The position numbers were made by a program, and so were the translations under genes. A DNA stretch of 7,582 bases from a bacterium (GTDB lineage Bacteria; CSSED10-310; JAJRTK01), in contig JAJRTK010000144.1 in assembly GCA_024278345.1 (NCBI GenBank), positions 1-7,582 of the forward strand, read 5' to 3'. Of this stretch, positions 311 through 7,536 are shown one piece after another (the first letter of the stretch is position 1; each line of letters begins with the position of its first letter). The notes under the pieces are model-generated. The model was given only the letters and a program-made list of their open reading frames with translations, had not been told where the DNA came from and did no database searches.

Positions 311-353
311 GGGCACAATCCTAAGAAAACACTTTTTTCTTTGGGTTGTGTCC
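311..353 (+). terminator. Long imperfect hairpin after sdhB, candidate transcription terminator
   Basis: Bases 311-321 (GGGCACAATCC) pair with 343-353 (GGGTTGTGTCC) through 11 pairs, two of them G-T. After one T/T mismatch, 323-329 (AAGAAAA) pair with 335-341 (TTTTCTT), leaving the loop CACTT. This makes 18 pairs in 43 bases, starting 52 bases after the sdhB stop. A run of T lies inside the stem rather than after it, so it is not a textbook intrinsic terminator. It may instead protect or process the 3' end of the sdh transcript. The structure is seen directly; the terminator role is inferred from position. Confidence 0.45.
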
Positions 354-549
354 GCTCCCGTCGGCGGCAGTCCGTCCGCCGCCACTCGCCCTTCATCGCC
401 CCGGACAGGGTCTGCTGCCCTGAAGCGGAGGCCCTGGCGCTGTGCCTGGAATTCACTGGTTGCCCGTCGCCCAGTCCGGCGAGAGCCGCCGAAGCGGCCA
501 CCGATGTCGGGTAGATGATGCGCCGGTGCGGCATCGTGGTGAGATATCC

Positions 550-1182: not shown

Positions 1183-4100
1183 TCAATCCTGGAATCTCCA
1201 GGGGCGCCGCCAGGCTGCGGCCAGCAAGGCCAACACGGGGAGCCAGGATGATCCTATGGGGACCTTGGGCGGAGGGGCTCCCCCGGAACCTGGGTCGGCG
1301 TCGGTCGAAGTTTCGTAGGCACCGCGATCGCAGTAGCTCGCGGGTCGAGTTGAGCCACGTTGATCCATACCTCCCACACCTGCCCCGGAACAGACCGCGG
1401 CATCTCCGGAGGCGATGGCCGCCGAGGGTTCCTGTAACCCCATAGTCCGCGTAGACCCGCCCTGGTTCTTTAAAGGTCCCAGGTTCGGGTCTCCCGACAT
1501 GAATCCCCTCAGCTTGGTCCCCGTGTTGCAGCTTCCGTCTTCCACAAGTGTGCCGACATTCTCAAGAAGAAGCCCGGGATTTCCGGAATCTTGGCTATTG
1601 AAGCACTCCTGCCCGTCACCGTTGGCCATGACCACGTTCCGCAACCAGAGTTTTCCGCCGCCGGAATTGTAGAGGCTTGCGCCAAGGTCCCTGTTCGACT
1701 GCTCTGGAGTGAGGCGATTCCCAGAGAAAGTCGAGTTGTTGATCTCCAGATTTCCGCCGTTCCGTATCGCCCCTCCAAGCTGGGCGCTGTTTCCGGCGAA
1801 CGTCGTGTTGGAGAGCGTTGCCTTTCCGCCCTGGATGCGGATGGCGCCTCCGCAGACCGCACGATTCCCCACGAACGTCGAGCGGCTGATGAAGGCTTCT
1901 CCCGTCGCCTGGTAGTAGGCGGCTCCACAGCCGGTGGCCTGGTTGGAATCGAATTCGGAGTCTTCCACGATGACGCTGCCGCCGCAGCTCTGGGCCAAGG
2001 CAGCTCCCCAGGCCGTGCCACTGTTTTCCGCAAAGATCATCCGCTCCAGCGTGAGGAGCTCACCGCAATTGAAGATGGCGCCGCCCATTCCGGCCCAGTG
2101 AGCCAGGTCATCGGCGGCGCCGTGCCGGATTTCCAGGCCTCGCAGGGTCGCGAGAAGAGTCCCGGCTCCCTGGATATGGAAGGCGCGCTTGCTGCCCGCG
2201 TCGATGGAAATCGCCAGCTTCTGCCCATCAATGATCAAGCTCTTGTCGATATCGATTTCGCCGTTCAGCTTGAGTATTCCGCCGGCTAGGCTAGGTTGAA
2301 AGGTGATAACCTCACCGGGGGCAGCGGTTGCCACGCGCTCCCGGAGGGAACAGGGTACCAAGCTTGACGGACCGGCGGGAACCGCTGAGTCCAGGAGGTT
2401 GGTCACCAGTCCTGGCGCACATTCCACGGCGTCGATCTCCACGGTGGCCATGTCGCTCAGCATTCCCGCCCCATCGTCGGTGACCGTGACGTTCAGGGTA
2501 TAGCTCGTCGGGAAGACTGCCTTTTCCGTGACGCGAATTTCCCCAAGCTGGCGATCGATAGCGAAGGCACCCCGGTCGTTGCCGCCGGTGATGGCAAAAC
2601 TCAAAGCGTCGCCCGGATCGGAATCGACTGCCTCCACACGCCCCACCAAGGTTCCGGCGGGATCGGTTCCGAAGATGGTCAAGGCGGCATCCTTGGCTTC
2701 CGGCGCAAGGTTGACGTCCCGAAGTTCAACGGTGATGAGCTCCCGGTCGGCAAGCGGCGGCGAGCTCGAGTCGATCACAGCGACAGCCAAGATGATGTGC
2801 GGCATTTGTGATACGTACAGATACCGGTTCCGTGCTACTCGGATTTCCCCGGACGCGGAATCGATGCTGAACGTGCCGTGGACGTTGCCATCGGTGATAG
2901 CGTAGGCAAGAGGAGGCGTGCCGCCAACAGTCAGCGGGCTCCCCACCAAGGTTCCAAGGGCGGCGCCCTCATCGACGGAGAAAATTGCCGCTTCCATATG
3001 GGGAGCCCCAGGCGGCAAAATTCCCCGGAACTCGTAAGCTCCGATGTCGCATGTTGTGGCTGGTCGGCCATAGCCTCGCTGGTCCAGTCCCCCCACTGTC
3101 GGGCTTCCGCAGATCTCCGGGGCCCCGGCGTCAATGGCGGGAGAACTTTCCAAAAGCTCCATCGTCTTAGTGATGCCACCGTTATTTCGCAGCCCACCCA
3201 ACTTCGGCTCGCCGGTCATCAATTCCACGGTCACCGCGGAAGCCGCGCAGTCCGCGCCGCCATCACCGATGAGGTTGTTTCTGCTTTCCAGGAGATCGCC
3301 TCCGTCAGCTCCGTCATTCCAGCGATCCCTCCAGCAGTCGCTGGCATCGTTTGGGGTTCCGCCGGCCACGATGCTGTTTCTCAAGATGAGAGCTCCCTGG
3401 AACTCGATGTTTCTTCCGTTTTGTGTCGAGCCAACGTCCGAAATTTCGTTTTCCACCAGAGTGCTGTTTGTAATCGTCAGAGGTGAACTCCAAGTGGAGT
3501 CGCTGAACCACCCGCCTATGGCGCCTCCCGATCCAGCCGAAAAATTTCCCGTCAGTGTCGAGTTTTCGATCTCCACCGTCGCCCGCTCAAGAGCAACAGC
3601 GCCGCCCGCGGCGTTGGAATAGGTGGAGACGCGGTTTTTCTCGAAAAGACTGCGAGCCACCCGGAGCCCGCCTCCGCCAGCGAAAAGAGCGCCACCGCCA
3701 AAATCTGCCTCGTTGCCCCGAAACAGACTCTCCATGACCAGACCATCACCGCACAGAAAATAGACGGCCCCGCCGCGATCCGCGCCTCGCCCATCTGCGA
3801 TGGAGTTTTCCAGGAAGGCCATCTTATCCAGTGTCACCAGGCCGTCCCGGCAATCCATGGAGACCGCTCCCCCCTGGCCACTATTGACACCCGATTCCGA
3901 AAAACCATTTCCCTCCACCAGGGTCAGACTCCGCAGCGTGACAGGCCGCGCAACGACGGTGAACTGGCGCGTTACGCCAGCGCCGCTGATCGTGATCCCC
4001 AGATCCTCACCGTCGATCACGATGGGTTTCGGGAGCACGATTTCGGTCTTCAAGGTCAGGCGTCCACCGGCCAAAGAAGGATCGAACGTGATCACCGGGT

Positions 4101-6345
4101 TCGCCTCCTGGCCGTAGTCGTGATGGAGCAAAAGGCTCCTTACCGTCGCCCTGAGTGTGCAGGGGATCCTAGCCTCGAAGGAGTCATCGGGATTATTGGG
4201 ATCGTTGGGGTCGTAGTCCGACAGGCTCTTCACGACGTAGGGCGCCGCCGTTGATGTCTGACAACCAGAATTGTCGGGCTCAATGGGAAAATCGCTGTCA
4301 GAGACATCGAAAAAGAAGTGGTTCGAGGTGCTGGCGCAGGAGACCCGCACCCTAGCCCGATCCGTTGCCACGGACGGAACCTCTACCTCTTGGGAACCGT
4401 CGTTGGGAACAGAGGCCGCCAGGGAATAGAGATAGCTCCAACCTCCGTCTACTGACAGGTCGATATCGACGCTCACGCAGCCCACGGGGGGCTCATCGGT
4501 TCCGGCCACATCCCAGGCGACACTGGTCGTGCTTCCCGGTCTCCACGAAAGAGCGGGCTCCGAGGAGCTGGGTGCAACGACCCTGAAGGGACCGGAGTCG
4601 CCGTCGAAGGTCAAATCCATTAAGTCGTAAGCTAGACCGCCACCCTCCGGGAAACTGTCGCGGGCAACCAGCCGCATTTGAACTGTGCGGGTCGTCCCGG
4701 GTGAGGGCACGGGAACGAACTCTCCAAGGCTCCGATCTGGATCGCCGGAAAGGATCTCCTCTAGTTTGGGAAAAGTCCGCTCCGGGCTCGATGATGCCTG
4801 AAACACAGAGAAATATGGTGGTTCGTTGTCATTGGGGGCCGATCCCTGCTCCGGATTCGAAACCGTCCTGCCCGGGTCATTCGGATCCAAAACCGTTGGC
4901 GTGTCCGGAGCGTCTGGCAGGTCGATTTCTTCCCAACTGAATCTTACGGAGTCCCCATCCTGATCACTGCCTGTTCCCCGCAATAGAAACGGTGTCCCCT
5001 TCGGGAATACCAGGCCACTCGTTCCAGCACTCACCGCCGGCGGATGGTTCAAAGAGCTCATATCGACCACTGTGCCGCAGAGCCCGCTCTCCCCATTGTC
5101 CAGCTGCTCGTAAACTCTGTCGATTCCCTTGGAGTGAAACTGGAAAAGCCGGCTCGCTGCCACGTTGTCCGGGCCGCAAAGTCCAGCGTAGGACATCAGC
5201 GTGCTTCCAGAGCCGGGCTCGAAAGCGAATTCCGGCGAATACTGGCTACCGGTTTCCCCATTACACCGGCTCCAAACGTGGGGCATCCCGAGCTGGTGTC
5301 CCAGCTCATGCACTAAGATCTCCACCGGAATAGCGCTTCCCGTCAACGCTTTGGCCTTCCCCGCCGAGCAACTGAGCCCGCCAGTGACGCCGCCGCACGT
5401 GCTCCAGACGAACAGATGCCCCACGTCATAATTTTCCGGACCAACGATTCCATCGACGGTCTCCTGGTTCAACTCGAAGTTTTCCGCCGCTGCCCGACCC
5501 AGCTCACACGGCTCCGTAAATCCCGGATCCGTCGCGTCGGTGAAAATCAATTCGCTGTTTTTCTCAACCAGTATGAAACGAAGCGACAGCTCGGGCAAGG
5601 TAATCGCATGGATTTCATTGATTTTCGAGACAATCGCCGCCAGAGTGTCGGCCTTTCTGACCAACAGAGGATCGCCAGAATAGCTCACCTGGTTCGTATA
5701 GTGGCGGCTGGCCGTCACCGCGAGGCGGAGCACCCGAACCTCGCTTCCAGTCCGTTCCACTCCCCGCGTTGCCTCTCCTCGGCTTCTCAAAGCCTGTTCC
5801 AGGAAATCTCCCAACAGATCGCCTCCTGTCCATCGAGGCTGCTGAAGGCGATCCCGGGCAAAGACGGCGTAATACCGCTGCTCACCAGGACTCATCGGCT
5901 GTATGGAGACGACATGATGTTCGTTCATCACCAGCGCGTTCAAACCTCGCCCGGACCAGGCAAGATGAACTCGGATCGACGGATCGTCCTCGCGAACACC
6001 CAAATAAGTCCTGACGCTGGGAAATTGGGCCGCCAGCCCCGGTTCCATGACGGCGTAGCGCCGAATCCGATAGCGCTCCACCGAGCCATCCAACCCGGGA
6101 AGCTCCACCACAGCTTCCCCTTTGCCTACTTCCAAGCCCTCCAATGCCGCTCCAAATGCGATGGAGTCCAGCACCGCGGCCTGATAAGATCGAGGAACGA
6201 GGGCAAGCCGCGGAGCCCGCCCTTGCAGCTCCCTCTTCGCCACCCGGCGCCAAAGACCGCCAGCCTGAACCGGGCGACCTCCAAGAAGAAGCCCTAGTAC
6301 TCCAACAAGCACCAGTCCCCGCTGTCCCATTCTAAGCAGGTCCAT
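1183..6345 (-). CDS. Secreted reprolysin-like zinc metalloprotease with two CSLREA-like/beta-helix/choice-of-anchor Q modules and cadherin repeats
   Basis: About 1720 residues; start ATG 6345, chosen for GTGAGG six bases upstream and a signal peptide directly after it (residues 1-28, ending VQA). An alternative start is ATG 6330. Residues 60-165 resemble the propeptide of bacterial reprolysin-like proteases (FPSVRTYLGV, then DDP, then YYAVFARD). The catalytic domain is about 203-413, with HELGHQLGMPH at 346-356 (zinc His346, His350, His356; Glu347 general base) and Met-turn LMSYAG around Met384. Residues 434-690 are the Ig/PKD-like region usual after such domains (SDQDGDSVRFSWE, SSPERTFP, VAWDVAGTDEPPVGC, DIDLSVDGGWSY, NHFFFDVS). 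Next come a CSLREA-like segment (PCTLRA, 728), Pmp-type GGA[IV]/FxxN beta-helix repeats (823-970) and an anchor-Q-like end (DQRGYGRP, CDIGAYE). Two cadherin-like repeats (1120-1306) follow. A second module has PCSLRE (1331), GGAI/FxxN repeats and CDRGAYE (1672-1678). The tail is Gly/Pro-rich, then SSWLPVLALLAAAW and RRPWR, like a tripartite sorting signal. Substrate unknown; probably acts outside the cell or on its surface. Confidence 0.9.
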   Translation of the reverse strand: MDLLRMGQRGLVLVGVLGLLLGGRPVQAGGLWRRVAKRELQGRAPRLALVPRSYQAAVLDSIAFGAALEGLEVGKGEAVVELPGLDGSVERYRIRRYAVMEPGLAAQFPSVRTYLGVREDDPSIRVHLAWSGRGLNALVMNEHHVVSIQPMSPGEQRYYAVFARDRLQQPRWTGGDLLGDFLEQALRSRGEATRGVERTGSEVRVLRLAVTASRHYTNQVSYSGDPLLVRKADTLAAIVSKINEIHAITLPELSLRFILVEKNSELIFTDATDPGFTEPCELGRAAAENFELNQETVDGIVGPENYDVGHLFVWSTCGGVTGGLSCSAGKAKALTGSAIPVEILVHELGHQLGMPHVWSRCNGETGSQYSPEFAFEPGSGSTLMSYAGLCGPDNVAASRLFQFHSKGIDRVYEQLDNGESGLCGTVVDMSSLNHPPAVSAGTSGLVFPKGTPFLLRGTGSDQDGDSVRFSWEEIDLPDAPDTPTVLDPNDPGRTVSNPEQGSAPNDNEPPYFSVFQASSSPERTFPKLEEILSGDPDRSLGEFVPVPSPGTTRTVQMRLVARDSFPEGGGLAYDLMDLTFDGDSGPFRVVAPSSSEPALSWRPGSTTSVAWDVAGTDEPPVGCVSVDIDLSVDGGWSYLYSLAASVPNDGSQEVEVPSVATDRARVRVSCASTSNHFFFDVSDSDFPIEPDNSGCQTSTAAPYVVKSLSDYDPNDPNNPDDSFEARIPCTLRATVRSLLLHHDYGQEANPVITFDPSLAGGRLTLKTEIVLPKPIVIDGEDLGITISGAGVTRQFTVVARPVTLRSLTLVEGNGFSESGVNSGQGGAVSMDCRDGLVTLDKMAFLENSIADGRGADRGGAVYFLCGDGLVMESLFRGNEADFGGGALFAGGGGLRVARSLFEKNRVSTYSNAAGGAVALERATVEIENSTLTGNFSAGSGGAIGGWFSDSTWSSPLTITNSTLVENEISDVGSTQNGRNIEFQGALILRNSIVAGGTPNDASDCWRDRWNDGADGGDLLESRNNLIGDGGADCAASAVTVELMTGEPKLGGLRNNGGITKTMELLESSPAIDAGAPEICGSPTVGGLDQRGYGRPATTCDIGAYEFRGILPPGAPHMEAAIFSVDEGAALGTLVGSPLTVGGTPPLAYAITDGNVHGTFSIDSASGEIRVARNRYLYVSQMPHIILAVAVIDSSSPPLADRELITVELRDVNLAPEAKDAALTIFGTDPAGTLVGRVEAVDSDPGDALSFAITGGNDRGAFAIDRQLGEIRVTEKAVFPTSYTLNVTVTDDGAGMLSDMATVEIDAVECAPGLVTNLLDSAVPAGPSSLVPCSLRERVATAAPGEVITFQPSLAGGILKLNGEIDIDKSLIIDGQKLAISIDAGSKRAFHIQGAGTLLATLRGLEIRHGAADDLAHWAGMGGAIFNCGELLTLERMIFAENSGTAWGAALAQSCGGSVIVEDSEFDSNQATGCGAAYYQATGEAFISRSTFVGNRAVCGGAIRIQGGKATLSNTTFAGNSAQLGGAIRNGGNLEINNSTFSGNRLTPEQSNRDLGASLYNSGGGKLWLRNVVMANGDGQECFNSQDSGNPGLLLENVGTLVEDGSCNTGTKLRGFMSGDPNLGPLKNQGGSTRTMGLQEPSAAIASGDAAVCSGAGVGGMDQRGSTRPASYCDRGAYETSTDADPGSGGAPPPKVPIGSSWLPVLALLAAAWRRPWRFQD
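1186..1290 (-). other. C-terminal sorting-signal-like tail of the protease (GlyGly-CTERM-like)
   Basis: The last 35 residues of the large protein run from a Gly/Pro-rich linker (GSGGAPPP) through a short hydrophobic stretch (WLPVLALLAAAW) to a basic end (RRPWR). This order is that of bacterial C-terminal surface-sorting signals such as GlyGly-CTERM, which is cut by rhombosortase. Choice-of-anchor domains are named for preceding such variable tails. The Gly motif is spaced further from the hydrophobic part than usual, so the exact class is uncertain. Confidence 0.45.
1312..2424 (-). repeat. Second CSLREA-like/beta-helix/anchor-Q module of the protease gene
   Basis: This coding stretch repeats, with divergence, the plan of 3031-4239: a PC[ST]LR segment followed by VITF and PSLAGG, a beta-helix of GGAI and FxxN repeats (FAEN, FDSN, FVGN, FAGN, FSGN), then DP-LGPL-N-GG, DQRG-RP and CD-GAYE. 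The two copies match in motif order but not in detailed sequence, so the duplication is old or the modules were recruited separately. Confidence 0.7.
2428..2988 (-). repeat. Two tandem cadherin-like repeats within the protease gene
   Basis: Residues 1120-1306 contain two cadherin-like units. The first has FSVDEGAALGTLVG, then YAITDGN, GTFSIDS, SGEIRV and VTVELRDVN-type spacing. The second has AGTLVGRVEAVDSD, FAITGGN, GAFAID and LGEIRV. The copies share an identical 15-base stretch (CCCCACCAAGGTTCC on the plus strand) at 2641-2655 and 2941-2955, exactly 300 bases or 100 codons apart, marking the repeat period. Such domains usually bind calcium and act as spacers or adhesive units. Confidence 0.7.
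3031..4239 (-). repeat. First CSLREA-like/beta-helix/anchor-Q module of the protease gene
   Basis: This encodes PCTLRATV, VITFDPSLAGG, IVIDGE and then Pmp-like repeats with GGAV, FLEN, GGAVYF, FRGN, GGALF, FEKN, GGAVAL, LTGN, GGAI and LVEN. It ends in NNLIGDGG, LGGLRNNGG, DQRGYGRP and CDIGAYE, the pattern of a choice-of-anchor Q domain. A short Asp/Asn/Pro run (DPNDPNNPDD) precedes it and could be a calcium-binding or flexible linker. Confidence 0.7.
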
Positions 6346-6493
6346 GGAAAGCCTCACCCAGACGGCGCAACAGGCGAAAAAGCCGGTCATCTTTCGGGTT
6401 GGAGCCCGCTTGTATCGCCCGCGGTCTTTCAGACTCACAGCTCGCGGTTTTGGTTGTTCCGTCCAGCAATTCATGGGTCGCTTCTCCAGGCAT
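6332..6493 (-). CDS. Possible 53-residue small protein overlapping the protease start
   Basis: ATG 6493 shares its A with the TGA of the ORF upstream (TGATG), and GAGAAGG lies about four bases before it. Its TAG stop lies 14 bases inside the protease gene and one base before the alternative protease ATG at 6330. Such overlaps often mean translational coupling. The product (start MPGEATHELLDG, end DDRLFRLLRRLGEAFHGPA) is hydrophilic with a likely amphipathic helix at its end and no signal peptide. I recognise no family. ORFs of this size arise by chance in GC-rich DNA, so this rests mainly on the start/stop geometry. Confidence 0.3.
   Translation of the reverse strand: MPGEATHELLDGTTKTASCESERPRAIQAGSNPKDDRLFRLLRRLGEAFHGPA
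6352..6357 (-). promoter_or_regulatory. Ribosome binding site GTGAGG for the protease gene
   Basis: Read on the minus strand, GTGAGG ends six bases before the ATG at 6345. The reading frame stays open up to ATG 6474, but that longer start would place about 43 non-signal residues before the signal peptide and has no clear ribosome binding site. Confidence 0.55.
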
Positions 6494-7317: not shown

Positions 7318-7325
7318 CAACACCG
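7318..7325. repeat. Left 8-bp direct repeat CAACACCG (candidate target-site duplication)
   Basis: This is identical to 7529-7536. Each copy abuts one end of the inverted-repeat unit at 7326-7528, as expected for a target sequence duplicated on insertion. A ninth base (G) also matches but belongs to the element end on the left side. Confidence 0.6.
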
Positions 7326-7528
7326 GGCCTCGGTCACATGGTACCGGCCACCCGAAAAAAGCGCGCAGCGCACAAAGATGTGGGTCCAGGGAGCTGGCTC
7401 CCTGGCGTGGGTCTGGGAGCGGCGCTCCCAGCGGAGGTCCGGAGGCAGAGCCTCCGCCGCGTTCCAGGGCTGGAAGCCCTGGGGCGGCGTCTGAAATCTG
7501 CACCGTGGCCGGTACCATGACCGAGGCC
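7326..7528. mobile_element. MITE-like 203-bp element with 24-bp terminal inverted repeats
   Basis: The left arm (7326-7351, beginning GGCCTCGGTCA) and the right arm (7505-7528, ending TGACCGAGGCC) are complementary over all 24 bases of the right arm. The left arm carries two extra bases (CA) around 7337. The unit is flanked by the 8-bp direct repeat CAACACCG. It is too short for a transposase and has no credible ORF, so if mobile it would depend on an enzyme elsewhere. Several IS families (for example ISL3, IS66, IS256) make 8-bp duplications, but I cannot assign this one from the ends. The interior is mostly the four-hairpin array at 7382-7482. Ends and duplication are seen directly; mobility is inferred. 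Confidence 0.6.
7382..7482. repeat. Four tandem hairpins with co-varying arms, about 25-27-base period
   Basis: Four units each begin with a G-rich lead ending in TC (GGGTC, GGGTC, AGGTC, CGTTC) followed by a perfect stem. Unit 1: CCAGGGAGC 7386-7394 with GCTCCCTGG 7397-7405. Unit 2: CTGGGAGC 7413-7420 with GCTCCCAG 7424-7431. Unit 3: CGGAGGC 7440-7446 with GCCTCCG 7450-7456. Unit 4: CCAGGGCT 7464-7471 with AGCCCTGG 7475-7482. Loops are 2-3 bases (larger if terminal pairs open). Unit starts are 27, 26 and 25 bases apart. Stem sequences differ between units while pairing is kept, which points to selection for structure, in RNA or in single-stranded DNA. Confidence 0.75.
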
Positions 7529-7536
7529 CAACACCG
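7529..7536. repeat. Right 8-bp direct repeat CAACACCG (candidate target-site duplication)
   Basis: This is the second copy of the sequence at 7318-7325, immediately outside the right inverted-repeat arm. Bases beyond it (7537-7582) show no recognisable gene. Confidence 0.6.

Follow-up and report, generated by a model that had tools for sequence, protein, structure and literature searches.

Miniature inverted-repeat elements (MITEs) of bacteria, such as Correia/NEMIS, RUP, ERIC and MITEAba12, are short, gene-less sequences with terminal inverted repeats (TIRs), target duplications, high copy number and strong secondary structure. Insertion sequences (IS) of the ISL3 family typically produce an 8-bp duplication. 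REP/BIME sequences are RAYT-associated short palindromes without TIRs or target-site duplications (TSDs), and Rickettsia palindromic elements sit in frame inside protein-coding genes. The element described here shares the listed properties of the bacterial MITEs, but it differs from them in its own end sequence (not found in the other collections searched), its 8–9-bp duplication, and a four-hairpin core that exceeds the subterminal arms in conservation and is common to a second TIR family; in addition, its partner IS was not found. The element type is ordinary and well proven, and the core is unusually conserved and shared. The locus represents a MITE family that is undescribed and was recently active, in a phylum with few sampled genomes (8 in the collection compared).

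Anatomy of the element

The analysed window (7,582 bp) was the entire contig C64 of a 6.06-Mb genome assembly with 550 contigs and a completeness of 87.9%. The element spans bases 7326-7528 (203 bp) and lies between exact copies of the target-site duplication CAACACCG (left, 7318..7325; right, 7529..7536), which were identified by direct sequence inspection and by a duplication test across copies. As in each element of the family, its parts are ordered TIR, left arm, H1, H2, H3, H4, right arm, TIR. The left TIR (7326..7351, plus strand; arm match and copy alignment) reads GGCCTCGGTCA(CA)TGGTACCGGCCAC, where the 2-base CA insertion is private to the window copy, the other A-type copies in a 36-copy alignment reading GGTCATGG. 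The right TIR (7505..7528, minus strand; arm match and genome TIR matches) is the exact genome consensus GGCCTCGGTCATGGTACCGGCCAC. The inverted arms 7325-7336/7518-7529 and 7337-7351/7505-7519 are 100% complementary with a 2-base offset.

Inside the TIRs lie two subfamily-specific subterminal arms, delimited by copy alignment and subfamily identities, both annotated on the plus strand: the left one (7352..7385; CCGAAAAAAGCGCGCAGCGCACAAAGATGTGGGT) forms a small weak hairpin according to pairing analysis, and the right one covers 7483..7504. Between them, likewise on the plus strand, follow hairpin H1 (CCAGGGAGC-TG-GCTCCCTGG, 7386..7405; inverted repeat and cross-family comparison), H2 (CTGGGAGCGGCGCTCCCAG, 7413..7431; inverted repeat and compensatory changes), H3 (CGGAGGC-AGA-GCCTCCG, 7440..7456; sequence and pairing analysis), and H4 (CCAGGGCT-GGA-AGCCCTGG, 7464..7482; inverted repeat, with U-A replaced by C-G in 13 of 27 copies). 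The sequence-only reading, which had described 24-bp TIRs with a 2-base insertion on the left and an abutting 8-bp duplication, was accurate to the base, as was its view of a gene-less 203-bp element lacking a transposase: this length is too short for a transposase gene, and the open frames are explained without one. Nearly all copies measure 199-204 bp; A-type copies other than the 203-bp window copy have 199-201 bp, with the exception of one 174-bp copy without one of the hairpins.

Elsewhere in the window, the minus strand encodes a 1763-aa protein (1183-6474) with reprolysin-like metallopeptidase, cadherin, beta-helix, and choice-of-anchor Q domains. At about 352-384 (minus strand) lies another palindromic repeat with dispersed copies, the third of its kind (GGCGGCGGACGGACTGCCGCCGACGGGAGCGGA), which had 43 matches in 0.78 Mb in addition to the window copy.

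Copies, target duplications and empty sites

Scanning the genome for the TIR with up to 2 mismatches returned 108 forward and 108 reverse matches (216 in total; reversed control pattern, 0), in agreement with the earlier argument that the arrangement was not due to chance. TIR-like ends (up to 4 mismatches) occurred 44 times in 775 kb and 0 times in shuffled sequence. Among 80 contigs inspected (775 kb, picked by number only), the related end types GGCCTCGTCCATCGTTTCGGCCAC (subfamily B) and GGCCTTGGTCATCGTTTCGGCCAC (subfamily C) were encountered, and both together gave 56 further matches in a whole-genome scan. About 40 copies, full or partial, were scored within the genome at 92-99% identity. 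The element has thus spread to more than 100 places and comprises at least three related subfamilies, so that the single copy genome-wide named beforehand as contradicting transposition did not occur. Many contigs start or stop within a copy, indicating that the repeat breaks the assembly, and it accounts for much of the assembly's fragmentation. Two contig ends (L003, C413; L008, C282) share one insertion site (GTTTTCTG), but their MITE copies show several base differences, which reflect either strain variants or assembly error.

The element was found in its own genome and not in the 60 other genomes (relatives) searched, nor in the plasmids and viral contigs searched. Perfect 20-mer matches in public genomes (L054, L055, among the matches listed) and in one viral contig (L202) were attributed to chance, having neither a second arm nor a MITE interior alongside.

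Perfect duplications flanked 22 of 40 distinct full copies (39 plus the window copy), 14 of them 8 bp long (window copy included) and 8 of them 9 bp long, and almost all differed in sequence between copies. This is what had been predicted, i.e., several copies with common ends and differing abutting 8-bp duplications, with 9 bp occurring in some. Leaving out the window copy, 16 of 39 had no perfect duplication, some being near-perfect; several copies lie at contig edges with doubtful assembly joins, which possibly explains the missing duplications, as recombination might alternatively. In one case (L154), a copy was inserted in the end of another MITE-like TIR, with the duplication GGGCTCGGT.

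Empty sites were recognised by comparing joined flanks. The copy on C123 (L025) lies in a repeat of which dozens of uninterrupted matches show one GGGCAACG, and the target GATTTAAC of the L159 copy is single and uninterrupted in L191. The copy on C5 splits an ISL3 transposase open reading frame (ORF) with a 9-bp duplication (GTTCAAGCG); upon removal of the MITE, the reading frame is restored across the two ORF halves, and their joined product matches intact ISL3 proteins along 97% of their length. The expectation of empty sites thus held insofar as they read a single duplication unit, but all of them are paralogous sites of other copies, and none is the CAACACCG site of the window insertion. 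Copy number, varied duplications and single-unit empty sites agree with the MITE and transposition reading.

Many copies, a palindromic interior, and a mosaic structure would also be found in a REP/BIME-like palindromic repeat array, and mosaic palindromes are likewise typical of Rickettsia palindromic elements. Such an array in place of a transposition unit is nevertheless highly improbable, being contradicted by the fixed outer ends, the 24-bp TIRs, the abutting 8-9-bp duplications and the single-copy empty sites: unlike REP/BIME and Rickettsia elements, the window family is a complete TIR/TSD transposition unit. With elements below 600 bp, no transposase gene, TIRs, copy-specific duplications, dispersed copies and empty sites, the family corresponds to MITEs.

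The window element is therefore almost certainly a non-autonomous miniature inverted-repeat element of a bacterial DDE-type IS that was moved in trans and left the CAACACCG duplication. The inverted ends, the constant 8-9-bp duplications and the empty sites, all directly observed like copy number and subfamilies, fit a DDE transposase acting in trans, and it is from established IS biology that we infer this chemistry and supply. A transposase supplied in trans would recognise the 24-bp ends, cut out or copy the element, and insert it at a cut staggered by 8 (sometimes 9) bp, giving rise to the CAACACCG duplication. Its source would presumably be an IS that was lost or is absent from the binned assembly.

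Search for the partner transposase

The full-length IS with these ends that the sequence-only reading proposed to look for was not found: no autonomous element with such ends was present in the assembly, no A-type TIR with A or T as the next base was detected in the genome, and no facing TIR pairs 1-3 kb apart occurred among the matches listed or the contigs examined. Since every listed contig is at least 2.5 kb long, an IS whose multiple copies were assembled into one short contig could be missing from the bin. Genome searches for Transposase_mut, IS1595, DDE_Tnp_1, and ISL3 gave no convincing partner. An IS256-derived origin was rejected with no Transposase_mut match in the genome, and an IS1595-derived one because the resident IS1595 remnants appear to end in GGCTCTATATGCGATCC, unlike the MITE ends.

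ISL3 is broken in this genome, with a transposase at C5 and a remnant at C395. That an ISL3-family transposase mobilises the MITE, its copies now being broken or absent from the bin, is possible but doubtful. The MITE duplications, 8 bp in most cases and 9 bp in some, fit the 8 bp typical of ISL3, C5 starts inside the transposase gene at a contig edge, as repeats presumably often do, and the B and C ends weakly resemble the right end of this genome's ISL3 (GGCTCTTCGCCATCTTTGAGGCCAAG; 37-90 of 20000 shuffles as good). The A-type end, i.e., that of the window, is however no closer to it than shuffles (5484 of 20000 as good), the ISL3 copy was itself hit by the MITE, only its right end is seen, and the window element differs from ISL3-family IS in having no transposase. 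At L045:1-1800 (G000:C33), an apparent IS with CTGGGGTGGTGAATTT in its ends interrupts an A-type copy; the 468-aa ORF of this IS had no match in Pfam or NCBIfam.

Hairpin core, second MITE family and host genes

The folding z-score was about -8, as RNA or as DNA. Across 27 copies, 95.9% of the named pairs were standard, and 13 pairs were changed on both sides (91 cells; 0 of 500 shuffles as good), including TIR positions 8, 9, 15, 18, and 19 as well as stems H2 and H4. Covariation of TIR positions between subfamilies is expected for paired transposase sites. Between subfamilies, identity was 0.81-0.95 in the core, 0.34-0.89 (mostly 0.34-0.69) in the arms, and 0.70-0.98 in the TIRs, with the sharpest contrast in A versus B (core 0.81-0.92, arms 0.45-0.57, TIRs 0.70-0.79).

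The same genome harbours a second MITE family (e.g., L101:8855-9088), whose ends GGGTATCCACGCAAGGCGGGACA are unrelated to those of the window element, with 324 genome matches to the end GTATCCACGCAAGGCGGGAC and likewise 8-9-bp duplications. H1 and the sequence preceding it are common to both families (41/45 identity for window versus second family; 44/49 for B versus second family), and an apparent hybrid joins a first-type to a second-type end (L125 near 4682). Modules appear to have been exchanged between MITE families by recombination, and selection is possibly acting on the hairpins. Because the core exceeds arms and ends in identity between subfamilies and reappears in the second family with other ends, it may be kept or exchanged as a module.

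Taken further, the core would be a structured, conserved functional unit of its own under selection or conversion (structured RNA, cruciform, or replication hairpin), which at least two unrelated end types carry as interchangeable vehicles and exchange via recombination. The core conservation, the shared H1 module, the hybrid-looking element, the compensatory stem changes, and the low folding z-score all argue for it; conversion or template switching can, however, homogenise palindromes without function, and Rfam had no match in the window. This reading of the sequences is rather unlikely. If true, it would invert the usual MITE pattern of conserved ends and a free interior. With a core common to subfamilies and two end types, selection on MITE interiors versus their homogenisation by conversion becomes testable. 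Smaller palindromes are apparently nested in MITE hairpin H2 (ATGCCGAGCG...CAAGC) or in a MITE end (GGTGGTGCCTTCGGCAGCTCTCGCTGTCGCTCGGACC) at several loci (L034, L038, L090; L087, L112, L124, L130).

Two shorter elements lie inside open reading frames. A 132-bp hairpin-less relative (L112:1205-1336; 9-bp duplication TCCCTTTTC) was observed inside a 765-codon open frame, which by eye resembles a fusion of an exosortase and an EpsI-like part. Flanked by 9-bp duplications (AAACCAGAG), a MITE remnant of 99 bp (L109:3252-3368; G000:C370) is located in frame in a 2-oxoacid dehydrogenase E2 gene, similar in this respect to Rickettsia palindromic elements. It lies in the linker between the lipoyl and E3-binding domains and adds about 36 codons, showing that MITE-type elements can add protein sequence.
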